Shown here in pieces: positions 1,552 through 22,726 of a stretch of 35,659 bases of DNA. The translations under genes and the position numbers were made by a program. The stretch is taken from contig JAFSMW010000155.1 of the NCBI GenBank assembly GCA_017447745.1, positions 1 through 35,659 of the forward strand, in the 5' to 3' direction. A model generated the notes under the pieces. The model saw only the letters and a program-made list of their open reading frames with translations. It was not told the DNA's origin and ran no database searches. The number at the start of each line of letters is the position of its first letter. Positions within the stretch are counted from its first letter, which is position 1. The DNA is from Thermoguttaceae bacterium (GTDB lineage: Bacteria > Planctomycetota > Planctomycetia > Pirellulales > Thermoguttaceae).

Positions 1552-3174
1552 ATGAACCTTTCTCAACAGCGCCGCGAAGAGTCTATTCGAAAAATCAGGG
1601 AGATCCGGGAATTTATCAAGCATTCGGCTCAGGACGAAAACGCCGGACGGCTGCTGACCTATCTCAGCGAATTGGAAAAGGATATAAAGGGTAAAAAGTA
1701 CGGTCTGGTTTTTGAAGAACATCAGGAGAAAATCGACGAAATTCTGAAAGACAACGCTCCCGTTCTTACCGAACAGGAAGACCTGTTTATCGACAACGGC
1801 GGACAGATGAATTGTCTTTTAGAGGGCGACAATCTCGCCGCGCTGGAACTGCTTCTTAAAACGCACCGCGGAAAAATAGATTTGATATACATAGATCCGC
1901 CGTATAATACGGGCAACAAGGATTTTATATACGATGATGATTATGTAGACAAAAACGATACGTTTCGACACAGCAAATGGATTTCCTTTATGGAAAAGCG
2001 GCTGAAACTGGCTAAAAAATTGTTATCAAAAAGAGGTTGTATATTTGTATCAATAGCAGATCATGAGTTTTCTAATTTAAAATTATTGATGGATATTATC
2101 TTCGGGGAACAAAATTTTCTATGCGATATTCTTTGGAATTCAACAAAGTCTGTTACAAATACTGCGGTTGTTTCTGTTTCTCATACGTATAATTTTGTCT
2201 ATTTCAGAGATATAAACTACATTATTGAACACCGGACGAACTTTAGAATTGCAGAAACTGGCGAAGGTTTTTCAAATCCAGACAACGATCCTCGCGGATT
2301 GTGGAAAGCAGATCCTTTTCAAGTTGGAGGGTGGCGACCAAATCAACAATATGAAATAGTCAATCCAAATACAGGCGTAGTATACAGACCAAATAAAGGT
2401 TGTTCATGGAAAAACGATTATAAAAAGTATCAGGAACTATTAGCAGACAACCGTATTGTTTTTGGGAAAAACGGTACTAGCGGTCCTCAACGAAAACGTT
2501 TTATTTGGGAAGCAAAAGAACGAGGGAGGGTTGTAAAAACAATTTGGGATGATGTTGATACAACTACAAATGGAACTCAAGAATTAAAAATAATCTTTGA
2601 TGGAGAATCTCCTTTTTCAAATCCCAAACCCGTTAATTTTATTCAACGCATTCTTGAATTGGGTTCTAATCCCAATTCTACCGTTCTCGATTTCTTCGCT
2701 GGTTCCGGAACGACGGGACATGCGGTTTTGAAACTGAACGCTGAGGACGGCGGGTCGCGGCGATTTATTCTCTGTACGAATAACGAGAACGACATCTGCC
2801 GCGACATAACCTACGAACGCATAAGACGGGTTATTGACAAAGAAGGTTACGCCGCGTCTTTGAAATACTATAAAATCGATTTCGTTCCCATTTCTGAACG
2901 GTTGTATTACGAATACGCCGACGAGCTATTGCTTCATATTCGAGAACTGGTCGAACTGGAAAACGGCGTCAATTTCCGTAACAATTCTGAAATCGCAATT
3001 GTTCTGACGGACGAAGAACTCGACGCGTTTATGGAAAATCGCGATGCGTTGAAAGCCTGTAAAGCCCTGTATGTTGGTCATGACGTTCTGATTAACGGCA
3101 AACAGAGCGCGGCGCTTAAAAGACGTAAAATCACTGTCAACGTCATTCCACAATACTATTATGAAGAATCGTAG
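1552..3174 (+). CDS. mod: Type III restriction-modification DNA adenine methyltransferase (Mod)
   Basis: This 540-residue protein is a beta-class N6-adenine DNA methyltransferase. The catalytic motif DPPY is at residues 115-118 (within LIYIDPPYNTG). The S-adenosylmethionine-binding motif DFFAGSGTTG is at 380-389, so the catalytic motif precedes the AdoMet motif, as in type III Mod. The N-terminal 80 residues are helical and charged, also as in Mod proteins. Mod and Res form the type III complex, and Mod recognises the asymmetric site. The middle of the gene (about 2010-2680, residues ~155-375, the usual target-recognition region) is far more AT-rich than the two ends: one 60-bp stretch at 2041 is about 22% GC, against about 55% at 1621 and 63% at 2701. 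This suggests exchange of the specificity domain. The ATG at 1552 follows GAGGG. The res gene starts 442 bp downstream, beyond a hairpin array. Confidence 0.93.
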   Translation: MNLSQQRREESIRKIREIREFIKHSAQDENAGRLLTYLSELEKDIKGKKYGLVFEEHQEKIDEILKDNAPVLTEQEDLFIDNGGQMNCLLEGDNLAALELLLKTHRGKIDLIYIDPPYNTGNKDFIYDDDYVDKNDTFRHSKWISFMEKRLKLAKKLLSKRGCIFVSIADHEFSNLKLLMDIIFGEQNFLCDILWNSTKSVTNTAVVSVSHTYNFVYFRDINYIIEHRTNFRIAETGEGFSNPDNDPRGLWKADPFQVGGWRPNQQYEIVNPNTGVVYRPNKGCSWKNDYKKYQELLADNRIVFGKNGTSGPQRKRFIWEAKERGRVVKTIWDDVDTTTNGTQELKIIFDGESPFSNPKPVNFIQRILELGSNPNSTVLDFFAGSGTTGHAVLKLNAEDGGSRRFILCTNNENDICRDITYERIRRVIDKEGYAASLKYYKIDFVPISERLYYEYADELLLHIRELVELENGVNFRNNSEIAIVLTDEELDAFMENRDALKACKALYVGHDVLINGKQSAALKRRKITVNVIPQYYYEES

Positions 3175-3219
3175 GCGTTATTAATTTCGCCGTTCGAGGA
3201 AAGATCAGATGAGACATTC

Positions 3220-3571
3220 CTCACAGCTTTAGCTGTGAGATAAATAATAAATCATACCGCAGCCCACAGCTTTAGCTGTGGGGGCAATTAAACAACAAAA
3301 ATCGTAGCCCACGCCTTTAGGCGTGGATTCCGAATGACATAAATAGTATTATAACGCGCGAATTCCCCTCCCTTCCCCGCGCCTTTAGGTGCGGGGAAGG
3401 GAGGGGAAGGGAAGCGTTTGGGGAGTTGCGCCTTTAGTCCCCCAGATAAATCTGGGGGCTACGATTTGAATTGTTTTTATTACCCACGTCTAAAGACGTG
3501 GGAAATGGAACAGATAAATCTGGGGGCTACGATTTTGAATTGTTTTTGTTACCCACGTCTAAAGACGTGGG
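3220..3571 (+). repeat. Composite hairpin array, copy A (between mod and res)
   Basis: At least seven perfect or near-perfect hairpins fill the mod-res gap. They are CTCACAGC-TTTA-GCTGTGAG (3220-3239), CCCACAGC-TTTA-GCTGTGGG (3263-3282), CCCACGCC-TTTA-GGCGTGG (3308-3326), a 21-bp stem with TTTA loop and one G-U pair (3363-3408), CCCCCAGATAAATCTGGGGG (3439-3458), and CCCACGTC-TAAA-GACGTGGG twice (3483-3502 and 3552-3571). Copies B, C and D share the order short hairpin, TATAACGCGCGAATT-type spacer, long stem, AAGCGTTTGGGGAG, CCCCCAGA hairpin. The array starts 46 bp after the mod stop codon and may affect mod mRNA ends or transcription into res. That role is inferred. Confidence 0.9.
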
Positions 3572-3616
3572 GATAGAAACTGATATTTATCATTCCCTTC
3601 AGCCCGTTTATAAACC

Positions 3617-5821
3617 ATGAACCTGACTCTGGCGTCATTTCAAAATAAAGCGATAGCCCAACTTTTAGAAGCAATGGAAAGCCCGCGGCGAGACATTGTT
3701 CTCAAAAGCTGTACCGGAAGCGGAAAGACGATTATTCTGACGCATTTCATGGACGAGTACAATCGCGGTCATTCAAACCACGTTTTCGTTTGGCTTACGC
3801 CGGGAAAAGGCGATCTGGAAGAGCAAAGCAAGCAGAAGATGGATATCTATATTCACAACGCTCAGACGAAACTTCTGCCGGACGTCATGCTGACCGGGTT
3901 TGAATCTGGGGACGTCTGTTTTATCAACTGGGAAAAGCTGACGAAAAAGGGAAATAACGCTCTTAAAGACGGAGAGCGTACAAACTTTTACGAACACATC
4001 CAACGTGCGCTTGACGCCAATCTACGCTTTACGATTATCGTAGACGAAAGCCATCAAAACAACACCGTCAAGGCAGCGGATATTCTCAGTATGTTTCGTA
4101 CGGAAAAGATTATCCGCTCTTCCGCAACGCCCCAAGGGGTTGCCAACGCTTTGATAATTGACATCTTAGACGAAGACGTTATTGCAGAAGGTCTGATTAA
4201 AAAAGCGCTTGTCATTAATGAGAACTTTCCCAAACATGTTCAAGTCGAAAATCAGACGGAGTTTCTTCTTGAAAGAGCGTTAGCCAAACAGAGAGAACTG
4301 GCAGCGGCGTTCACCTGTCAGGAGTCGAAAGTTAATCCATTGATTATCGTTCAGCTTCCCAATAATTCAGACGTCCTTCAAGACGAGGTAGAACGCTGGT
4401 TTGATTCGCAGGGCGTGACTTACGAAGACGGCTTATTAGCCGTCTGGCTGGCGAATCAAAAACAAAATCTGGACGACATCGAACAGCCCGACGCCAAGCC
4501 AATCGCGGTTATTATCAAACAGGCAATCGCCACCGGCTGGGACTGTCCGCGAGCGCATATTTTGGTCAAACTGCGGCACAATATGGACGAAACGTTTGAG
4601 GTTCAAACAATCGGACGGATTCGCCGTATGCCGGAAGCAAAACATTACGGATCGCCGCTGCTGGACAACTGCTATTTGTACACGCTGGACGACAAATTCA
4701 CACAAGGCGTCAGGCAGTATCTGGGCAAAGACGCTCTGGACGCTCAGACGCTTAATCTTAAAGACGAGTTTCAATCGATTGTTCTAACCAGCGAACAAAA
4801 AACCATTCTCGCTCCAAAGCCAGACCCCAGAAGCGCTTTGATCGCTATATATGGATATTACCGAAACAAGTACAACATTGACGGCAGGACAATTGAAAAT
4901 AAAAATAAGTTTGAAGCGCATGGGTACGTCTTCAATTCCGATATTATCCGTTACACCCGTTCCGGTGAAATTCCCAACATGACACAGGCGGCGCTGGAAT
5001 CTCTCAATAGAATTGATTTTCGCGAAACGCTCAACACGCACCGACACGGACGAGAATTCCATCATCACGTTGCCGCTATTGCGTTAAAAATCGGCTTAAC
5101 ATACGCGGAATTGAACGCGATTGTCAGAAAGCTGTTTTGTATTCAAACCAAAAACGACGATTATAGAATATTATCGCTGTCAGTTCGCGAACTGTATTCT
5201 TTTGTAATCAACAATGCCGAACGGCTCAAAGAGGATATTTTGGAAATCATGGCGCAGAATACACATCAACCCATAGAGGACGCTCCCGTATATCAAGTTC
5301 CGTTTCGATTTCCCCCAACGTTGCTTTTTACGTATAACGCCGCCGCCAGAAATCAGGACGTGTTCGATAAAAACGTCTATGCGAATTACCTGTCGTCTGC
5401 GGAACCGCGTTCTGACCCGGAAAGGAAGTTTGAACGTTTTTGTCAGTCCTGCCCGGCGGTTAAATGGTTTTATAAAAACGGCGATAAAGGCGCGGAGTTC
5501 TTTTCAATTGCCTATTCGGATTCTTTGGGACATCAAAAGACGTTTTATCCGGATTACATTATCGGGACAGCAGGAGGAATTTGGATTATCGAAACGAAAG
5601 GCGGATTTAGCCGAATGGGCGCCAGCGAAGACATCGACAGATTTTCGCCAATCAAGTTTAATGCTTTAAAACATTACGTTGAAAAATACGGCTTGCGTGG
5701 GGGATTCGTCCGGGAAGACAAGGAGAGTTTAGAACTGTGTATTTGTACGGAGGAATACTCTGACGACATTCACTCCAGCGCGTGGCGGTCGCTGAGCGAG
5801 GTTTTAAAGGAGGACGCTTGA
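3617..5821 (+). CDS. res: Type III restriction endonuclease, helicase-nuclease subunit (Res)
   Basis: This 734-residue protein has a superfamily 2 helicase/translocase core followed by a nuclease domain. Visible motifs are Walker A CTGSGKT (residues 32-38), Walker B DESH (143-146), the SATP motif (169-172), an ATGWDCPRA motif-V-like segment, and IGRIRRMPE resembling motif VI. The C-terminal nuclease has the PD-(D/E)XK pattern, with D646 in YPDY and E659-T-K661 in WIIETKGG. It partners with Mod just upstream and cleaves after ATP-driven communication between two sites. The length is on the short side for Res subunits, which often exceed 850 residues, but all core motifs are present and it looks intact. 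No Shine-Dalgarno sequence is evident before the ATG. It may be co-transcribed with mod through the hairpin array, or have its own unseen promoter. Confidence 0.93.
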   Translation: MNLTLASFQNKAIAQLLEAMESPRRDIVLKSCTGSGKTIILTHFMDEYNRGHSNHVFVWLTPGKGDLEEQSKQKMDIYIHNAQTKLLPDVMLTGFESGDVCFINWEKLTKKGNNALKDGERTNFYEHIQRALDANLRFTIIVDESHQNNTVKAADILSMFRTEKIIRSSATPQGVANALIIDILDEDVIAEGLIKKALVINENFPKHVQVENQTEFLLERALAKQRELAAAFTCQESKVNPLIIVQLPNNSDVLQDEVERWFDSQGVTYEDGLLAVWLANQKQNLDDIEQPDAKPIAVIIKQAIATGWDCPRAHILVKLRHNMDETFEVQTIGRIRRMPEAKHYGSPLLDNCYLYTLDDKFTQGVRQYLGKDALDAQTLNLKDEFQSIVLTSEQKTILAPKPDPRSALIAIYGYYRNKYNIDGRTIENKNKFEAHGYVFNSDIIRYTRSGEIPNMTQAALESLNRIDFRETLNTHRHGREFHHHVAAIALKIGLTYAELNAIVRKLFCIQTKNDDYRILSLSVRELYSFVINNAERLKEDILEIMAQNTHQPIEDAPVYQVPFRFPPTLLFTYNAAARNQDVFDKNVYANYLSSAEPRSDPERKFERFCQSCPAVKWFYKNGDKGAEFFSIAYSDSLGHQKTFYPDYIIGTAGGIWIIETKGGFSRMGASEDIDRFSPIKFNALKHYVEKYGLRGGFVREDKESLELCICTEEYSDDIHSSAWRSLSEVLKEDA

Positions 5822-11435: not shown

Positions 11436-14400
11436 ATGTTTTCGAAATTTTTTATCGACAGACCAATTTTTGCGACGGTAATTTCGTTGCTGATTTTCAT
11501 CGCGGGGATTGTAACAGCGTTACAGCTGCCCATTGAGCAGTTTCCTGACATTGTTCCCCCGTCGGTAAACGTGTCTTGCTACTATTTGGGAGCGGACGCT
11601 CTGACGCTGGCCGAGTCAATTGCCATTCCGATTGAGAAAGAGGTCAACGGAGTGGACAATATGCTCTATATGACGTCAACCAGTTCCAATACCGGACAGT
11701 ATTCGCTGACGGTTTATTTTGCTATCGGAACCAACCCGGACATCAACACGGTCAACGTCATGAACCGCGTCAATCTGGCGCAGCCGCGTTTACCCGCAGA
11801 CGTTCGTCAGACGGGCGTTACGGTCAGCAAAAGATCTCCTAATATTTTAGGTTTCTATTCGTTCCAGCTGAGCGATTCAGCCGCTGAAACAAAGGACAAA
11901 AACTATCTTTCCAACTACGTTTCGATTAACGTCAAAGACGCTCTGGCGCGAATTCACGGCGTCGGCAGCGCTGAGTTGATGGACGCGCGAGATTACAGTA
12001 TGCGAATCTGGCTCGATCCGGACATTTTAGCTCAGCGCAACATTTCGATTAACGAAATTGGCAGCATCCTGTCAGAACAAAACGTTCAGGTTGCGGCAGG
12101 AAGCGTTGGCGGCGAACCGGCTCCCAAAGGTCAGCTGATGACTCTGACCGTTTCTACAAAGGGACGTCTCCAGACGGTTGAGGAGTTTGAGAACCTGGTC
12201 GTCCGTACGACCAAAGACGGGCGCATGCTTAAACTCAAAGACGTTGCCCGGATTGAGCTGGACAGTCAAACGTATACAAACGGGTCGTTTAATATGGTCT
12301 TTGATCCTGGCGAAAGCGCAGGCAAAAAGGAAAGCGCCGAGAAGAAGGGCGAACCCGCAGAGGCAAACAAGCCTGCGTACCAGCCCAAACTTCGTGATTC
12401 AGCGACCATTGCCATTTACGCCGCGCCGGGCGCAAACGTAATGCAAGTGGCTCAAGACGTTAGACAAGAACTGGAAAATCGCAAGGCGGAATTTGAGAGC
12501 GCGGGCATTGAATATATCAACGCCTACGACTCGACAATGTTCATTTCAGAGTCGCTCAAAGAAGTTGGTTTTACACTCTATTTGACCATTGCGATTGTCG
12601 TTGCCGTTGTGTATATCTTCCTTCAGGACTGGCGCGCAGCCCTTATTCCGACGCTGACAATTCCGGTTTCTCTTGTCGGTACGTTCTTTATGATGGGGCT
12701 GTTCGGGTTTACGATTAACACGCTGACCCTGTTCGGGCTTTGCCTTGTCATTGGCATCGTTGTTGACGACGCCATTGTCGTGGTTGAAAACTGCCAGCGT
12801 TTGTTGGACGAAGAAGGTTTGAATCCTCACGACGCGGCTGTTAAATCCATGGAAGAAGTTACCGGACCGATTATTGCAACGACCTGCGTTTTGATGGCGG
12901 TCTTTCTTCCGACGCTGTTTATTTCCGGGCTTGTCGGGATTATGTATCAGCAGTTCGCTCTGACCATTGCCGGGTCGGTTTTGATTTCCGCTTTGTGCGC
13001 TTTGACAATCGCGCCGTCGTTATGCGCGATCCTGTTGAGAAAGTCCAAACCGGAAGAAGAGAAGTTCTTCGGGTTCCGCTGGTTTAACTATGGATTCAAC
13101 GGCTTTGCCCGCTGGTATGAACGCAACCTCAATTTCCTGACCGTCGCAACGCCGATTACCGTGATATTCTGGATTGCTCTTGTCGCGGCTTTGGTTTGGG
13201 GCGTTTCCGTCATGCCGCAGGGATTTATCCCGCAGGAAGACCAGGGAACGCTGTTTATCGACATACGTTTGCCGGACGGGCGTTCTTTGCAGCAAACTGA
13301 ACTTATTGCACATAAAGTCAACCAGATTCTTCTGGATCATTATGCAAAGGATATCGTCAATACGCACTTTGTTACCGGCTTTTCCATGCTGGACGGCACG
13401 TCTTCCAGCAACGTTGCTATCGGCATCATTTCTCTGAAAAACTGGGAAGATCGCAAAGGCGAAGGAGAAGACGCTGAAACGCTTTCCCAAAAAATCATGC
13501 TGGAATGTTACCAAAACGTTCCTGAAGCCCAGGTTATTGTCTTCTCTCCGCCGCCCATTTCCGGCATCGGCACGTCCGGCGGTTTGGAAGGTCAGCTGGT
13601 TGACAAAAACGAATCCGGTCTGGACGCTCTGTACAACGCGGCTCAGGAACTCAACCTTCAAGGACAAAACAGCGGGACGTTCTCGCAGATTACGTCAACG
13701 TTCAAGCCCACATATCCGCGTCTGTATTTGAATATCGACCGCGAAAAGTGCAAAAAGATGAACGTCAATCTCAACGAGTTGTTCGTTTCGCTGTCCGGCT
13801 ATTTGGGAAGTAAATACGTCAACGACTTTAATACATACGGTCGAGTTTTCCAGGTCATTCTGCAGGCGGAAGGCGAAAAGCGCGCTGACAAAGACGCGAT
13901 TCTTTCTCTCCCGGTTATGAACGCCGATGGGAAGAAGATGCCGCTGTCGACGGTGGCGACGCTGGAAGAAACCGTCGGTCCGCAGTTTGTTACTCGATAT
14001 AACATGTACACGTCAACCGCGGTGATGGGAGACCTCAACCCGGGTAAGAGTACAGGCGTTGGCATGAGCGAAATGAAACGCATCGCTCATACCGATTTGC
14101 CGGAAGGATTCGAGGTTTTCTGGACAGGCATGGCGTACCAGCAATCTCAGGCGGGAACGTCGATTGCGGTCGTCTTCGCGCTGTCGCTGGTTTTCGGATT
14201 CCTCGTGCTGGCAGCGCAGTACGAGTCGTGGTCAGCCCCGATTATTATCATCATGGCTGTCCCGCTGGGCGTCTCCGGAGCCGTTCTGGCGGTCTTCCTG
14301 CGAGGTCTTGACATCAACCTGTACACGCAAATTGGTTTGATCGTTATGGTCGGCTTGTCAGCGAAGAACGCGATTCTGATTACGGAATTCGCCCGCGACA

Positions 14401-14708
14401 AATGGCTCAAGGAAAAGCATACGATTCTGGAGTCCGCTCGTCTTTCCGGACGTCAGCGACTTCGTCCGATTATGATGACGTCGTACGCGTTTATTTTGGG
14501 CGTCGTCCCGTTGATGTTCGCCACCGGCGCCGGCGCTCACAGCCGCGTTGACATCGGCACTGCGGTTTTCGGCGGCATGCTTGAAGAAACCATGGTCGGC
14601 ATTCTCGTCTCCCCGGTTTTGTTTATCGTGATTACCTCTATCGCCGTTTCGATTATGAGCGTATTCCGCCGAGGACTGGGAACGGAAAACGAGTCGAGCG
14701 AAGCATAA
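11436..14708 (+). CDS. RND efflux transporter, inner-membrane pump (AcrB/HAE1 family)
   Basis: The 1090-residue protein starts FSKFFIDRPIFATVIS, as AcrB-family pumps do, and has the expected pattern of one transmembrane helix, a large periplasmic loop, six helices, a second loop and five helices. The paired acidic residues of the proton relay are visible as D444-D445 in GIVVDDAIVVVEN. It should export hydrophobic compounds using the proton motive force, together with the adaptor encoded just upstream. A Lys/Glu/Ala-rich stretch of about 25 residues near residues 291-317 (GESAGKKESAEKKGEPAE) looks like an insertion relative to AcrB, matching the low-complexity insertion in its partner. The C-terminus ends shortly after the last helix. 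A repeat cluster begins directly after the stop codon. Confidence 0.95.
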   Translation: MFSKFFIDRPIFATVISLLIFIAGIVTALQLPIEQFPDIVPPSVNVSCYYLGADALTLAESIAIPIEKEVNGVDNMLYMTSTSSNTGQYSLTVYFAIGTNPDINTVNVMNRVNLAQPRLPADVRQTGVTVSKRSPNILGFYSFQLSDSAAETKDKNYLSNYVSINVKDALARIHGVGSAELMDARDYSMRIWLDPDILAQRNISINEIGSILSEQNVQVAAGSVGGEPAPKGQLMTLTVSTKGRLQTVEEFENLVVRTTKDGRMLKLKDVARIELDSQTYTNGSFNMVFDPGESAGKKESAEKKGEPAEANKPAYQPKLRDSATIAIYAAPGANVMQVAQDVRQELENRKAEFESAGIEYINAYDSTMFISESLKEVGFTLYLTIAIVVAVVYIFLQDWRAALIPTLTIPVSLVGTFFMMGLFGFTINTLTLFGLCLVIGIVVDDAIVVVENCQRLLDEEGLNPHDAAVKSMEEVTGPIIATTCVLMAVFLPTLFISGLVGIMYQQFALTIAGSVLISALCALTIAPSLCAILLRKSKPEEEKFFGFRWFNYGFNGFARWYERNLNFLTVATPITVIFWIALVAALVWGVSVMPQGFIPQEDQGTLFIDIRLPDGRSLQQTELIAHKVNQILLDHYAKDIVNTHFVTGFSMLDGTSSSNVAIGIISLKNWEDRKGEGEDAETLSQKIMLECYQNVPEAQVIVFSPPPISGIGTSGGLEGQLVDKNESGLDALYNAAQELNLQGQNSGTFSQITSTFKPTYPRLYLNIDREKCKKMNVNLNELFVSLSGYLGSKYVNDFNTYGRVFQVILQAEGEKRADKDAILSLPVMNADGKKMPLSTVATLEETVGPQFVTRYNMYTSTAVMGDLNPGKSTGVGMSEMKRIAHTDLPEGFEVFWTGMAYQQSQAGTSIAVVFALSLVFGFLVLAAQYESWSAPIIIIMAVPLGVSGAVLAVFLRGLDINLYTQIGLIVMVGLSAKNAILITEFARDKWLKEKHTILESARLSGRQRLRPIMMTSYAFILGVVPLMFATGAGAHSRVDIGTAVFGGMLEETMVGILVSPVLFIVITSIAVSIMSVFRRGLGTENESSEA

Positions 14709-14709
14709 A

Positions 14710-15020
14710 TTTTTTTCGGAGTGCGAGAGCAAAGCTCTCGGCGGCGAGGCGCCGCTCCCGATCCGCGCTGCCGCGCGAGACGTATTATAATCGCTCCCGT
14801 TGGTCGCTTAGCGCCGCATTTTTTCGGAGTGCGGGAGCAAAGCTCCCGCTTTCGCATAACGTCGAGAACAACAAAAAACGTTTCTACGCCGAAAACGCCA
14901 GAACTTCCGGTTCGCGGGCGTATCGCCCGCTTAAATAAACGTAAAACGCGAGCTGTCGCTCGCTTAATAAAGCGAGAGTTCGTAACACACAGGTTAAGGC
15001 GGCGCGGCGCCGCTCCCTAA
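14710..15020 (+). repeat. GC-rich hairpin repeat cluster after the RND operon
   Basis: The stretch contains a 69-bp core unit (14741-14809) that differs from the copy at 34135-34203 at only 4 positions. It is flanked by two copies of TTTTTTCGGAGTGCG plus hairpin, namely GAGAG-CAAAG-CTCTC near 14724 and GGGAG-CAAAG-CTCCC near 14833, in which both arms changed together. Further on are GCGGGCG/CGCCCGC near 14915 and GCGAGCTGTCGCTCGC near 14948. A second GCGGCG/CGCCGC motif lies at 14999-15013. From 15021 to 15156 there is an isolated TATAAT (15042-15047) and, at 15144-15150, a GGGAGG ribosome binding site for the next gene. The open frame through this cluster is not considered a gene. Confidence 0.8.
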
Positions 15021-15156
15021 CCGCCTACATTAACGGTTGGATATAATCAGCCGTTTGATATAAACATTTTGAACGTCGTCCATGACTATAGGCATGGTGT
15101 CAAAAACATCATTAATCAATGGCTCTTTTTAATAATAGCCAGAAGGGAGGTCTTTT

Positions 15157-16257
15157 ATGAAATCACATTTCATTTTATTGGCTCTAAGCCTGACTTTCGC
15201 GCTGGCGTCTTTTGCGCCTGTCCGCGCGACGGCTGACGGCGTCATTCCACCAGTTCCGGAAAATGGAACTCCGAAGGACTATTTAAAGTATATTCAAACG
15301 GTTAATGACCTGCTCAATCAAAAAGTTCAGGACATTGAGTTTCAAGCTTACAAGAATGGCATAGATAAAAAATCGGAAGCATTTACCAAGTCGCTAAAAA
15401 GCTCTGCAAGGGAATACCTTGTTCCTCTTGAAAAAGCAACGGATAAGGCGCTGCTTCTAAAAGACGTTCCTGACGAAGATTTTGATAAACTGGTTGAATC
15501 TAAAATTGATAATATCGAAATGATGGTTTGGTTGAACGACGACGAAGACGCTGGCGATGCACAAATGGAAGCGTTCGTTAAACAGCTTCGCAAGATGAAC
15601 AAGTCGAAAGCGGCAGACGGCGTCGAATTTCTGTTATTAAGGGCGCATATTGAAAAACTCAAAAGCGAACTGCAGACAAAGGTTCAAGCAGGCTTAAATG
15701 AAGGGAAGACTTATTCCATCTTGATTAAAGAATTAGCAGGCGATTTTTCCCCCATTGAACAGGCAATCGATAGAGCTTTGCTTCTCAAAGGCATTTCAGA
15801 TGATGATTATAAAGAACTGATCGAAGACAAGAGTATATTTATTATGTCGTCAGCAGAGATTAACGGCGACAATGAAGACGCAATTATTGCCAAAATGAAA
15901 GCGTTTGCGGAACTGCTTCGTAAAATTGATAAATCAAAATTTGCTGATTTAATCGAAGCCAAGATTTTCCGTATAAAAGTTAGTAGTTACGTACATAAAG
16001 GCAATATTGAAGCATTTGCCAAAGCGGCAGCTGAAATTGACGATGAAATCGAAAAAGCGGGAAAAAACATTACACCCGCGCAGGCGGATAAAGCGTTTTT
16101 GATTGGCATTATGTCTGTTGATCAACCCGGTTACAAAGCTCCAGAAGGACGGATAGAGAAATACATTAAGGCTCTTTCGGAAGCTGACGACCCGGAAGTC
16201 AAAAGTTATGCCAATTCACTTGAATCGGTTATTGAGCAAATGAAAGACGATAAATAA
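15157..16257 (+). CDS. secreted helical protein of unknown function with internal duplication
   Basis: The 366-residue product has a signal peptide, probably cleaved near residue 26 (RATA-DG). The mature part is predicted to be almost all helical and rich in Lys, Glu, Asp and Ala. It holds two copies of a unit about 109 residues apart. Residues ~92-165 (EKATDKALLLKDVPDEDFDK...MEAFVKQLRKMNKSKAAD) match residues ~201-275 (EQAIDRALLLKGISDDDYKE...MKAFAELLRKIDKSKFAD). No cysteine-based or catalytic motif is visible and I do not recognise the family. It appears to be a single-gene unit with a strong GGGAGG ribosome binding site. Hairpin array C follows 87 bp after the stop codon. Confidence 0.82.
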   Translation: MKSHFILLALSLTFALASFAPVRATADGVIPPVPENGTPKDYLKYIQTVNDLLNQKVQDIEFQAYKNGIDKKSEAFTKSLKSSAREYLVPLEKATDKALLLKDVPDEDFDKLVESKIDNIEMMVWLNDDEDAGDAQMEAFVKQLRKMNKSKAADGVEFLLLRAHIEKLKSELQTKVQAGLNEGKTYSILIKELAGDFSPIEQAIDRALLLKGISDDDYKELIEDKSIFIMSSAEINGDNEDAIIAKMKAFAELLRKIDKSKFADLIEAKIFRIKVSSYVHKGNIEAFAKAAAEIDDEIEKAGKNITPAQADKAFLIGIMSVDQPGYKAPEGRIEKYIKALSEADDPEVKSYANSLESVIEQMKDDK

Positions 16258-16743: not shown

Positions 16744-17430
16744 ATGATTTACGAAGGAGATTTTCATAACGACGAACATCGTTATCAGTTTGCTATCGCG
16801 GTTGCGAAATTCAACAAGACAATTACCCAGCGTCTTTTAGACGGCGCGATTTGGCGATTGAAACAAGCCGGGGTAACGGAACGTCAGATTGACGTCTTCT
16901 GGGTTCCCGGCTCGTTCGAGCTGCCAACGATTGCCGAAAAACTCTGCTGCGTGCACATCGGCGGCGTCCATCTGTACAACGCGGTTATTTGTCTCGGCGC
17001 GGTTATCAAAGGCGAAACCTCGCACGACTTGCACATCAACCAGTCGATCAGCCGGCATTTTATCGACATCTCCCGTACTTTTGAAATCCCGGTTATGTTC
17101 GGCGTTCTGACCTGCAATAACGTCGAACAGGCAAACGCCCGATCAGTTGCGGTTGAAGAACTATACCCGACCGGAAAGCTGGAAGACGTTCAAAACGTTC
17201 CCGATAAAACCGTCGCCGCTCACCTGGGCAACAAGGGCGTCGACTGCGCTGAAGCTGCGCTGGAAATGGTCGATCTGATGGAGCAGATTGAAGAATTGGG
17301 CAACGTCGAAGATGAATTTGACGACGATGACATGTTCGATGACGACGATTATGACAAAGAAGAGTTTGACAGTGAAGATTTCGATGACGATGATATAGAA
17401 GACGACAGCGATGATAATTTGCCGTTCTAA
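16744..17430 (+). CDS. ribH: 6,7-dimethyl-8-ribityllumazine synthase with acidic C-terminal tail
   Basis: The enzyme condenses 5-amino-6-ribitylaminouracil with 3,4-dihydroxybutanone phosphate in the penultimate step of riboflavin synthesis. Family motifs are FWVPGSFELP, YNAVICLGAVIKGET with the conserved active-site His94 (SHD), PVMFGVLT, EQA and LGNKGVDCAEAALEMVDLM. The protein is 228 residues against about 155 for most homologues. A segment of about 20-25 residues is inserted before GNKG, and the C-terminal ~41 residues are very acidic, with 26 Asp/Glu and one Lys, ending DDSDDNLPF. This end resembles the DDDIPF/DDDLPF tip of single-stranded DNA-binding proteins. No other riboflavin genes and no nusB are adjacent. 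There is no Shine-Dalgarno sequence. A terminator hairpin follows the gene. Confidence 0.93.
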   Translation: MIYEGDFHNDEHRYQFAIAVAKFNKTITQRLLDGAIWRLKQAGVTERQIDVFWVPGSFELPTIAEKLCCVHIGGVHLYNAVICLGAVIKGETSHDLHINQSISRHFIDISRTFEIPVMFGVLTCNNVEQANARSVAVEELYPTGKLEDVQNVPDKTVAAHLGNKGVDCAEAALEMVDLMEQIEELGNVEDEFDDDDMFDDDDYDKEEFDSEDFDDDDIEDDSDDNLPF

Positions 17431-17473
17431 AACAGAGTCCTGATTCGAGTAAGAAGTCTTTTAATTAAACTGT

Positions 17474-17512
17474 CGTGGGGTTATTAGACCCCACGGCTTT
17501 TGTTTATTGTCT
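17474..17512 (+). terminator. Rho-independent terminator of ribH
   Basis: CGTGGGG (17474-17480), an 8-nt loop and CCCCACG (17489-17495), followed by a T-rich tract containing TTTTG and TTTATTG and ending in a run of T. A second hairpin, CCACGGG/CCCGTGG (17532-17552), lies between it and the convergent gene's 3' end and may serve that gene. Confidence 0.75.
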
Positions 17513-19165: not shown

Positions 19166-22100
19166 CTATATGGATAAGATGGGTAATAAATTGCCGTCCA
19201 AATCGGTTTCCAACTCGGAATTATCGTCGTCGATAAACAGTTCCAAATCGAAGAAAAGATCGACGTTTTCAGGGGTTAAAGCGTTTATTTCAGCGGATGA
19301 AGAAGCGCTGTTCTGTTCATCATGTACAAATGTATAGCTTCCTTCCAGGACGGAATAAGTTGCCTGATTATCCTGATTTGTCAGCGTATTTGTGGCGCTG
19401 GAAGACAGAATGACGTCTGCGAAATAAATGTCTGATGCGTTATTTGAACTGGACACGGGCGTTAAAACGCAGTCATGAATCGGATCGACAAGAATGGTTG
19501 TAACAACTGTTTGATTGGATTCTTTGCTTTGCGCTGGAACGGCGACAGGCTCTTCTGCAACGGGTGCTGCGCCCTGAGCGTTTACAGCGTCTGCGTTGGT
19601 TTGAGCTGCAATGGCGATGCCAGCGCCGTTTTTAGCGTACGATCGCCCGTAATACGTTGCAAAAAGAACGAAGTCGTTGGTATCTACCGTTCCAGACAGA
19701 TCGAAATCGCAGTAATACTTTGTATCTTTTACTGCTGGGTCGGGAGCGTATCCGTAATAAGTTGCAAAGGAAATAAAGTCTTGAACGTCTACTGCGCCGG
19801 AATCGTCCAGATCGTAGGGAACCGCCCAGACAGGCGTGTTGATAACGTTGGCGTCTGACGCGGTCTTGTCTTTATCAGTGAAGATGGTAATCCTCAAATC
19901 GCGGGATTCGTCTGCTACAGCAACGCCTGCTTGTCCTGGGAAGTCTGAAGGAGTGGCGGGAACCATTTTGATATTGGCAACCAATCCGTCGTAGACAGTC
20001 GTTGAATCCATAATCGCGGCGATGAAGGTAACTTCTCGCGTCGTTCCCAATTCGTCCAGCGGGACGTCGTGATAGGAATAAGCAAGATTGGCGAACTCGG
20101 AATTTGTCCAGTCCGGCTTGACGAGCGTTGCATCGTACTGGAAGACGATAGAAATCCCGCCCTGGTCAACGACGTCGTCTGTATTGGCAAACAGCTGAAT
20201 GTTCAGGAATTCCCATTCGTTTACACTTGTTGAAATTACCGAGTCATTGCGACCGTTCCAGGTCGTCAAAACGGCAGTCATCAAAGGCATATCGCCGGTG
20301 TTAGTCAGAACGACGGCAGCGTCTGAAGATTCGAAATCGGGATTTTCTGAAACCGCCATAACGGCGACTTCATACAGACTAGCGTCTTCTCCTTCGGCAA
20401 GGTTAAACTGACATGTCAGTGTGGCTATGTTTTCCTCGCCGACGTTCCACTGTTCCGTTCCCAGTTCTCGATAATAGACGCTGTACGCGGCAGCGTTGTC
20501 AACAGCGTCCCAAGACGCGGAAATCTGAGAGCCGTCAAAATCTGCCCAAAGGTTGGCTGGAGCGTCGAGTTTGCCAAGCGTTTGAACTTCAATAATTTCA
20601 GACGGCAACGATAGCGACGCGTCGTATCCCTGCAAATAGGCGGAAATGCGAACTTCATAAACGCTTGACGGATCAAGATTATTCATAGAGCAGGACGTTG
20701 GGGATTCCTCGTCGCTCCAAAGACCTCCGATCCATTCGTCCGCGCCTTTTTTGCGGAATTCAATATAGTAACTGTCAGCGTTGTCAACAGCCGACCAGCT
20801 TACATTGAACTCAGTAGCCGTAACTCCTGTAGCAGTTGGATTTTCTGGTGTGTCCAGAACGGTATGAAGTTCAAAAACCGATGTAGTATCGCTATGTTTG
20901 CTTGCCCACGCCCATTTGGAGCCGTTCCAGTACGGACAATACCAGGTGTTAACAGCTACAATATCAAAAGAACCGTAACCAAAGTACAGCGGCGAATACG
21001 TTTGAGTTGTCGAATCGTATTGTTGACTGACGACGTCTACGGTTGTAGCGCCTTCTTCGGCGATTCCTGAACCAAGATAATACTGCCCGGCATAGACCTC
21101 GGTTTCAAATTGAGAATTTCCGCCTTCTACAGTAAACGTGATTCCGGAATTAACGGATGTGTAGCCGTCTCCAATGACGCCGGTGTCGTCTGAAAGAGCA
21201 AGAGCAACGCTTGTAGGCGCGGGAATGCTGTTTGGGTCTGGTCCGATAACGATTGGAACGTTGAGGGACGCTAAAAGATCGCTATCATAATGTATTGTAT
21301 GATCAGAATAGTATTTTGTAGCATAAACGACCAGGTAATAGTCTCCCATAGAGAAGTCGGCGCAATTGACTGTAACTTCGCCAGTATTATAATTGGCGGA
21401 AGCTCCGTTGGGAATAAACGTAAACGTTCCCTTTCCCTCTTCGTCGTATTTGATATAGTACAGTTCAGAATAATAGCCAATTTGTTCTCCGGTTGCAAAT
21501 CCCGCTGCATAAGTTTGAGTATAGTCGTTTCCCTGTACAACGTATGCATAATCGTTTTCAATCGGGTAGAATACTGGAACCTGATTTTCTGAAGTGATGT
21601 TGAGAGTAATAACCTGAGACGTTCCAGCCTTGCCGTTTTGGTCGTACGGCGTAACGCGGATAGTCCCTGTTGACACAGTTCCAGCAGCGACGTTGGAAGC
21701 CGTGTTGGCGCGAACGGTCAGCGTAGAATTGGTGTAGTTGACAACTTGCTCAGCGTTGGTTATGATAACGTCCGGGTCAGGCGTGGAATTGGCGTTAGTT
21801 CCCTGTTTGTTGACTTCCGCCTGAACTTCCTGACCGTCAATAAGAAAGCCAAATACAGAATGCTTGAAGTTGAGCCAGTTGCAGCGATCAGAAGTTACAA
21901 AGAACTGGCTGGAACCGGTGTCTTTGTAACCGGTGTTTGCCATTGCCAAAACGCCTGAAGAGTTCATCTGCAAGTCGTTGTTGAATTCGTCTGCGACGTT
22001 GTCCGCCAGACTGCCGCGGAAGTTGCCGTAAGCGTCGTACCCGCCTCCTTGAGACATGAACCCTTCAATAACGCGATGAAAAATCGAATTCTGATAAAAT

Positions 22101-22606
22101 TTCTCCGTATGCCCCTGTCCAAAATCAATATCCGTATCAGTCAATGTGAGAATGTGTTCAACCGTGTTAGGGGCTTTGTCGGCAAACAGTTCAAACAGCA
22201 TAGTCGAGTCTTCGCCGTTGAGAATGCTGTTGCCCTCTTGAGCGATAGTCAATTCCCAGTAGGGGTTACGCGTGTTGAAATACGCCTGCTTTTGCGCCGT
22301 TGACATGCCGGTTTTCCAGGCGGTGCCGACAGACAGGTCGCAAGTCAGATCCCCGGTGAGAACTTCCACCTTATAATAAACAGCGTCGCCGTCCGCGTCG
22401 GTTGACGTCAGCGGAATGTACCACGGCGAGTTCGAAGTGATATCGTAAGTCGTAGAGTCAAGCGTCATAACTGGCGCGACGTTAAGCATGGCGCGTTCTT
22501 CCAAAAGCTCCATTCGAAGCGGCTGAGGCTTATAACCGGACTTTTTGGAGGAACTGCGAAACGGCTTGAACAATCGGGACAACCAGTTTTTTTTTGCGCT
22601 TTTCAT
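19166..22606 (-). CDS. large secreted cyclophilin / fibronectin-III / dockerin protein
   Basis: The 1146-residue product starts at the ATG at 22606, because the following N-terminus (basic region, then LEERAML at residues 35-41) is the typical planctomycete start of giant exported proteins. A longer frame to 22726 adds 40 unlikely residues and overlaps the promoter. A cyclophilin-type peptidyl-prolyl isomerase domain spans ~134-290 (FHRVIEGFMSQGG at 176-188, SSQFFVTSDRCNWLNFKHSVFG). Ig/cadherin-like segments follow (~300-580), then two fibronectin type III domains (~585-677, ~680-768) and a cohesin-like beta domain (~775-910). A dockerin pair comes next (931-988, with DLDDSGAVDVQDF and DFDLSGTVDTNDF calcium loops). 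The last ~150 residues are of unknown type. It is probably surface-exposed; the substrate is unknown. Confidence 0.88.
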   Translation of the reverse strand: MKSAKKNWLSRLFKPFRSSSKKSGYKPQPLRMELLEERAMLNVAPVMTLDSTTYDITSNSPWYIPLTSTDADGDAVYYKVEVLTGDLTCDLSVGTAWKTGMSTAQKQAYFNTRNPYWELTIAQEGNSILNGEDSTMLFELFADKAPNTVEHILTLTDTDIDFGQGHTEKFYQNSIFHRVIEGFMSQGGGYDAYGNFRGSLADNVADEFNNDLQMNSSGVLAMANTGYKDTGSSQFFVTSDRCNWLNFKHSVFGFLIDGQEVQAEVNKQGTNANSTPDPDVIITNAEQVVNYTNSTLTVRANTASNVAAGTVSTGTIRVTPYDQNGKAGTSQVITLNITSENQVPVFYPIENDYAYVVQGNDYTQTYAAGFATGEQIGYYSELYYIKYDEEGKGTFTFIPNGASANYNTGEVTVNCADFSMGDYYLVVYATKYYSDHTIHYDSDLLASLNVPIVIGPDPNSIPAPTSVALALSDDTGVIGDGYTSVNSGITFTVEGGNSQFETEVYAGQYYLGSGIAEEGATTVDVVSQQYDSTTQTYSPLYFGYGSFDIVAVNTWYCPYWNGSKWAWASKHSDTTSVFELHTVLDTPENPTATGVTATEFNVSWSAVDNADSYYIEFRKKGADEWIGGLWSDEESPTSCSMNNLDPSSVYEVRISAYLQGYDASLSLPSEIIEVQTLGKLDAPANLWADFDGSQISASWDAVDNAAAYSVYYRELGTEQWNVGEENIATLTCQFNLAEGEDASLYEVAVMAVSENPDFESSDAAVVLTNTGDMPLMTAVLTTWNGRNDSVISTSVNEWEFLNIQLFANTDDVVDQGGISIVFQYDATLVKPDWTNSEFANLAYSYHDVPLDELGTTREVTFIAAIMDSTTVYDGLVANIKMVPATPSDFPGQAGVAVADESRDLRITIFTDKDKTASDANVINTPVWAVPYDLDDSGAVDVQDFISFATYYGYAPDPAVKDTKYYCDFDLSGTVDTNDFVLFATYYGRSYAKNGAGIAIAAQTNADAVNAQGAAPVAEEPVAVPAQSKESNQTVVTTILVDPIHDCVLTPVSSSNNASDIYFADVILSSSATNTLTNQDNQATYSVLEGSYTFVHDEQNSASSSAEINALTPENVDLFFDLELFIDDDNSELETDLDGNLLPILSI

Positions 22607-22697
22607 AGTGAATGGAGTAAAATAGATTTTTTTGAGGAACTGCAAACGGCGAAATGCAGTCAATATAATATATAATCCTCTATCGTCTTTTTGATGT

Positions 22698-22726
22698 ATT
22701 ATACTACAAAAAGTTCCTTTAGGCAA
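22698..22726 (-). promoter_or_regulatory. promoter of the cyclophilin/dockerin gene
   Basis: On the minus strand: TTGCCT (22721-22726), a 17-bp spacer and TATAAT (22698-22703). The predicted start is near 22691, giving a leader of about 85 nt to the chosen ATG. Its position inside the longer open frame supports the downstream start codon. Confidence 0.6.

Follow-up and report, generated by a model that had tools for sequence, protein, structure and literature searches.

The window (the whole stretch of 35,659 nucleotides of Thermoguttaceae DNA analysed here) contains a ribH gene whose product, lumazine synthase, ends in a long acidic tail capped by the residues NLPF. Comparison with sequences from about 120 relatives suggests, at roughly even odds (a probability of about 0.5), that this is mainly a lineage-specific, disordered polyanionic tail acting through its charge and carrying a short aromatic/proline cap. 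The features on which the argument turns, all on the forward strand, are these:

16744-17430 (+): ribH, lumazine synthase (6,7-dimethyl-8-ribityllumazine synthase), 228 amino acids with acidic C-terminal tail (PF00885, TIGR00114)
17143-17220 (+): α4-α5 loop insertion, residues 134-159 (alignment to spinach lumazine synthase, 1c2y; loop lengths)
17305-17415 (+): acidic body of the tail (residues 188-224), rich in Asp with Phe and Tyr interspersed, variable in length among congeners (genus comparison, C-terminal counts)
17416-17427 (+): NLPF end (AAT TTG CCG TTC), resembling the tip of single-stranded DNA-binding protein (SSB), with identical residues in three tailed species (pattern search, genus comparison)
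17428-17430 (+): ribH stop codon TAA (TAG in two congeners; genus comparison)
17472-17497 (+): intrinsic-terminator-like hairpin (11 pairs) with T-rich DNA after it; the congeners largely keep its sequence

The open reading frame at 16744-17430 (+) is a lumazine synthase, as the earlier note had it: residues 15-179 match the whole Pfam domain DMRL_synthase (PF00885) at 142.9 bits (cut-off 26.7), and the score against TIGR00114, 120.9 bits, is also over its curated cut-off (84.6). The protein shares with the lumazine synthases of spinach (1c2y), B. subtilis (1rvv) and A. aeolicus (1hqk) the whole catalytic domain, the conserved NKG and the LEM helix end; it differs from the solved chains (those matched are mostly 150-200 residues long) in having ~23 extra loop residues and the acidic tail of ~40 residues, the latter without a counterpart in the alignments shown. 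No Rfam match to an FMN riboswitch lies near ribH. The C-terminus reads ...VEDEFDDDDMFDDDDYDKEEFDSEDFDDDDIEDDSDDNLPF-stop, and the count of 26 Asp and Glu among the last 41 residues, together with the end DDSDDNLPF, could be reproduced. (A small correction: the span 17308-17430 previously assigned to these 41 residues covers 40 codons and a stop codon; the first of the 41 residues begins at 17305.) From the strong terminator-like hairpin at 17472-17497 it follows that the gene truly ends with the tail, which is no product of read-through into a neighbour.

How unusual is such a tail in its own genome (4.35 Mb in 249 contigs)? Genes called on the window and on a further 261 kb (~6%) of the genome, 205 in all, have a median of 5 Asp and Glu in their last 41 residues, with a 99th percentile of 11; RibH has 26 and the runner-up 12. 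The RibH tail is thus a genuine outlier, beyond compositional chance, and a general tendency of the proteome toward acidic tails is rejected as its explanation. (A second, shorter acidic tail was noted in this genome: a ribosomal protein S6-like reading frame 5' of ssb, locus L001, 884-1327 (+), ends DSDSDSDDEE.) Nor is the tail an assembly artefact: two other metagenome-assembled genomes (MAGs), RUG11551 and RGIG2232 (goat duodenum), have one of like kind with an identical end.

Four species of the genus, including the window's own, were compared, the named congeners being MAGs of rumen and gut Thermoguttaceae. Three are tailed; the fourth (G001) ends ...QQIDEMESDII and has no tail. The two tailed congeners end ...DKDFDDDGNLPF (G002) and ...DDDDDDSDDNLPF (G003), and the three tails extend 44, 42 and 27 residues past the core. 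That their bodies vary in length and sequence while remaining strongly acidic and in frame counts in favour of a tail acting through its charge. The tail-less G001 has the same AcrB-type gene 5' of ribH as the window and different DNA 3' of it; this is consistent with an alteration at the gene's 3' end and also speaks for the charge-tail reading. If charge is what counts, why are the last four residues identical in three species? Charge alone makes no such demand, and this is a point against the reading that we prefer, as is the a priori rarity of a hydrophobic-Pro-Phe end on an acidic tail.

The surrounding family offers a wider perspective. A RibH match was found in 103 of 119 genomes, and 103 tails (two of them from outside the family) were compared. 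An acidic block is present in 49: the three of the window's genus, all ending in NLPF; 45 that run on into a basic block; and one (L048) that stays acidic to its end (DNND). The hydrophobic-Pro-Phe end (xPF) occurs in none of the 46 acidic-tailed RibH outside the window's genus, and comparable charged RibH tails were absent from 22 order-level relatives. The gut Thermoguttaceae genera g9, g10, g21, g25, g29 and g32 have RibH tails of up to ~165 residues, laid out as an acidic block, an aromatic/proline cap and a Lys-rich (histone H1-like) or Gly/Lys-rich end. (Loci with such polyampholyte tails include L016, L022, L026, L031, L032, L034, L036, L038, L040, L041, L043-L045, L050 and L054-L057, as well as others of the family.) An aromatic/hydrophobic pair stands within 8 residues of the end of the acidic block in 34 of the 45, where shuffled tails predict 10.8, an excess that is descriptive and carries no formal test, these being related rather than independent sequences. 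Examples of the cap are FYLPP, FFLP, WFLPP and WFVHGG, with QLPF also found at the acidic/basic hinge, and KKTAKKAVKKSTKKKKK exemplifies the basic ends that follow. Like the window's tail, these begin past the RibH helix with an acidic block, in many cases ending in an aromatic/proline cap; they differ in continuing into basic ends, in lacking xPF at the terminus and in belonging to a separate clade of the RibH tree. Being internal, usually ahead of a basic end and accordingly devoid of a free C-terminal Phe, their caps cannot serve as SSB tips. The combination of acidic block and aromatic/proline cap thus turns up repeatedly on RibH with no SSB mimicry, which lessens the need to invoke mimicry here. 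In the literature search, neither lumazine synthases with acidic tails nor the polyampholyte RibH tails of gut Thermoguttaceae were found described.

A tree of the RibH core, made by a quick method, places the window's genus in one clade (support 100) and 51 rows from g9, g10, g32, g21, g25 and g29 in another (97), with the short-tailed genus g18 branching beside the latter. Since the window's genus lies outside the 51-row charged-tail clade, charged RibH tails in gut Thermoguttaceae look to have at least two separate origins. Two gains are the simplest reading of this tree; a possible alternative is a single gain followed by losses in g18 and in G001. Descent of NLPF from the acidic/basic hinge of the gut clade (FYLPP, FFLP, QLPF) is not favoured, the window's genus lying outside that clade. 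Two further sources were tried and set aside: copying of the 3' end of the SSB gene into ribH, for which DNA similarity offers nothing beyond CCGTTCTA, and a viral origin, for which no viral contig matched.

The number of tails that one assembly could display depends on its oligomeric state. Insertions in the α4-α5 loop of lumazine synthases go with pentamers rather than 60-mers; in cage-forming lumazine synthases the C-termini face outward (antigen fusions). In the window's RibH, aligned to the spinach enzyme, 32 residues separate the "QA" and "NKG" anchors, against 9 in most order-level relatives and 20-21 in most of the family; the excess is ~23 residues in the window's protein, ~11-12 in most of the family and nil in most order-level relatives (L029 is an exception). 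This loop corresponds to the 129-133 loop of A. aeolicus lumazine synthase (AaLS), which must move for pentamers to dock (PMC13376624). The short α4-α5 loop of the 60-mer cage-formers, which permits contact between pentamers, is thus absent from the window's RibH, and its ~23 extra residues make the display of tails on 60-mers doubtful. The earlier note had envisaged many tails on either pentamers or 60-mers; given the association of such insertions with pentamers, five tails per assembly rather than sixty would be the safer guess.

The preferred charge-tail reading can be put as a sequence of events and consequences. Most likely, once the lineage had split from the tail-less species, the tail would have appeared at the ribH 3' end, alongside the change in downstream neighbourhood; it would then have lengthened and shortened in frame as GAY-rich codons were gained and lost, with its acidity under selection. 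Each pentamer would be surrounded by a ring of polyanionic tails, probably with a mainly electrostatic effect: such a ring would limit higher assembly or aggregation and would bind polycations, metal ions or a basic partner. NLPF would be a short aromatic/proline cap, with no requirement for binding SSB partners. We infer gain of the tail rather than its loss, the pentameric state and the electrostatic function; disorder of the tail is suggested by its composition and by a poor AF2 model (from four sequences; mean pLDDT 53.5, tail below 50). Charge pairing with riboflavin synthase was considered and rejected: that protein has no Lys-rich or other basic tail in the window's genus, ending just after its second domain, and there is no obvious cage-localisation peptide. 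(Elsewhere in the window's genome, two loci, L181 at 12592-15318 (-) and L182 at 15320-15667 (+), encode Lys-rich C-terminal repeats (KKTTAKKTTAKK...), putative basic partners that may interact with acidic tails.)

The likeness of the RibH end to an SSB tip is nevertheless real, as the earlier note had proposed: the pattern GAYRAYNTNCCNTTYTRR (D-[DN]-x-PF-stop) is matched twice in the whole 4.35 Mb, at the tips of RibH and of SSB, and nowhere in a reversed control. The sole SSB of this genome is the product of a separate gene and ends MSQDDVPF. What the two ends have in common with each other and with the usual SSB tips (DDDIPF or DDDLPF) is a run of acidic residues leading to hydrophobic-Pro-Phe with a free carboxylate, and in RibH this LPF-stop is found in three species. 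What sets RibH apart is Asn at position -4, a far longer acidic run and a metabolic enzyme without an OB fold as its carrier (the Pfam scan gives DMRL_synthase alone, with no match to the SSB family, PF00436); binding is putative. At -4 each of the three RibH tails has Asn, with acidic residues further upstream, whereas every complete SSB end read (16, drawn from 15 of the family's genomes) has Asp there. Nor do the two tips co-vary: G003 combines an SSB ending DDPPF with a RibH ending DNLPF. (In that SSB, L119, Pro replaces the usual hydrophobic residue before PF.)

Might RibH mimic SSB, NLPF and the Asp residues upstream docking into the SSB-tip pockets of PriA, RecO, RecG, DnaG and the like, and its multi-tailed oligomers recruiting or sequestering these proteins? 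We consider this unlikely. The rules of SSB-tip binding, under which the terminal Phe enters a hydrophobic pocket, the carboxylate meets a basic lip and Asp lies on a basic ridge, with deletion of the terminal Phe abolishing binding (PMC10164576), could be satisfied by the RibH end as far as its residues go. The pocket of PriA comprises Trp82, Tyr86, Lys370, Arg697 and Gln701 (PMC5531588), and a hand-read alignment of the window genome's PriA with that of Klebsiella (4nl4) finds four of the five kept (Trp82, Tyr86, Arg697, Gln701) and Glu in place of Lys370; each of the four genomes of the genus encodes both RecO and PriA. To these points, and to the genome-wide exclusiveness of the pattern, may be added the retention of NLPF in all three tailed species despite turnover of the tail body. 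Against them stand the Asn at -4, the lack of co-variation in G003, the tail-less congener and the 46 acidic RibH tails of the family without xPF, besides which riboflavin synthesis has no connection with the SSB partners that we are aware of. Relatives with acidic tails lacking hydrophobic-Pro-Phe, which the earlier note had named as the observation that would count against its idea, are thus plentiful across the family; within the genus the tip is nonetheless kept in three of four species, that is, in every one with a tail. The stronger proposition, that NLPF is a convergent working copy of the SSB docking tip through which RibH assemblies would bind replication-restart and repair proteins by multivalent xPF tails, strikes us as distinctly unlikely.

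The conservation of the tip itself bears on both mimicry and chance. The three tailed species differ by 0.30 changes per site at fourfold sites of the core and by the same 0.30 in the 66 bases after the stop codon, and the flank therefore behaves as neutral. At this rate the four tip codons (~9.7 nonsynonymous sites) would escape all amino-acid change with P ~0.05, a borderline value, limited by the number of tailed species (three), that weakly favours selection on the tip and, as borderline conservation, is counted against mimicry. The tail might thus be functional through its charge, or functionless, with NLPF a chance product of its origin, retained because too little time has elapsed for its loss. 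That is possible, and we hold it tentatively, second to the preferred reading: the ~5% neutral chance is compatible with it, any four consecutive residues of the RibH core are likewise unchanged in 70% of cases, and NLPF lies outside the slippage-prone GAY stretch. It is weakened by the a priori rarity of an xPF end on an acidic tail (~6e-4, our estimate from rough amino-acid frequencies) and by the fact that the single codon difference among the three tips, TTG/CTG, is synonymous. A quite different proposal, by analogy, is that the acidic, aromatic tail folds back onto basic patches of its own pentamer, the phosphate-binding active site for example, tuning activity or assembly, much as the acidic C-terminal tips of Hfq bind that protein's own basic rim (PMC5606850). 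Both proteins would carry disordered acidic tails on oligomeric rings, and the RibH tail starts directly after the last core helix; Hfq, however, binds RNA, for which there is no support in RibH, and the AF2 model is too poor to reveal contacts. We rate self-docking as very improbable. Mimicry, a charge tail and chance had all been on offer from the outset: the charge tail fits the comparison better than mimicry does, and chance is an unlikely source of the acidic tail while being a possible one of its tip.

Lumazine synthases are model self-assembling proteins, and the repeated appearance of long charged tails within one bacterial family supplies natural variants of them. These variants (acidic alone here; acidic, aromatic and lysine-rich in the gut clade) should be useful for studying assembly, partner binding and condensation of a metabolic enzyme. 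Were the xPF end to bind SSB partners after all, an unrelated enzyme would have come by convergence to mimic a motif central to genome maintenance.

Other features of the window can be noted briefly. The contig edge (1-500, -) holds the 5' part of a 23S rRNA gene (Rfam LSU_rRNA_bacteria). At 1552-5821 (+) a DNA methylase gene (N6_N4_Mtase) precedes one for a ResIII-type helicase/restriction subunit, and the two look like a type III restriction-modification pair. The product of 19166-22726 (-) is large and combines a cyclophilin-type peptidyl-prolyl isomerase domain with an Fn3 domain.
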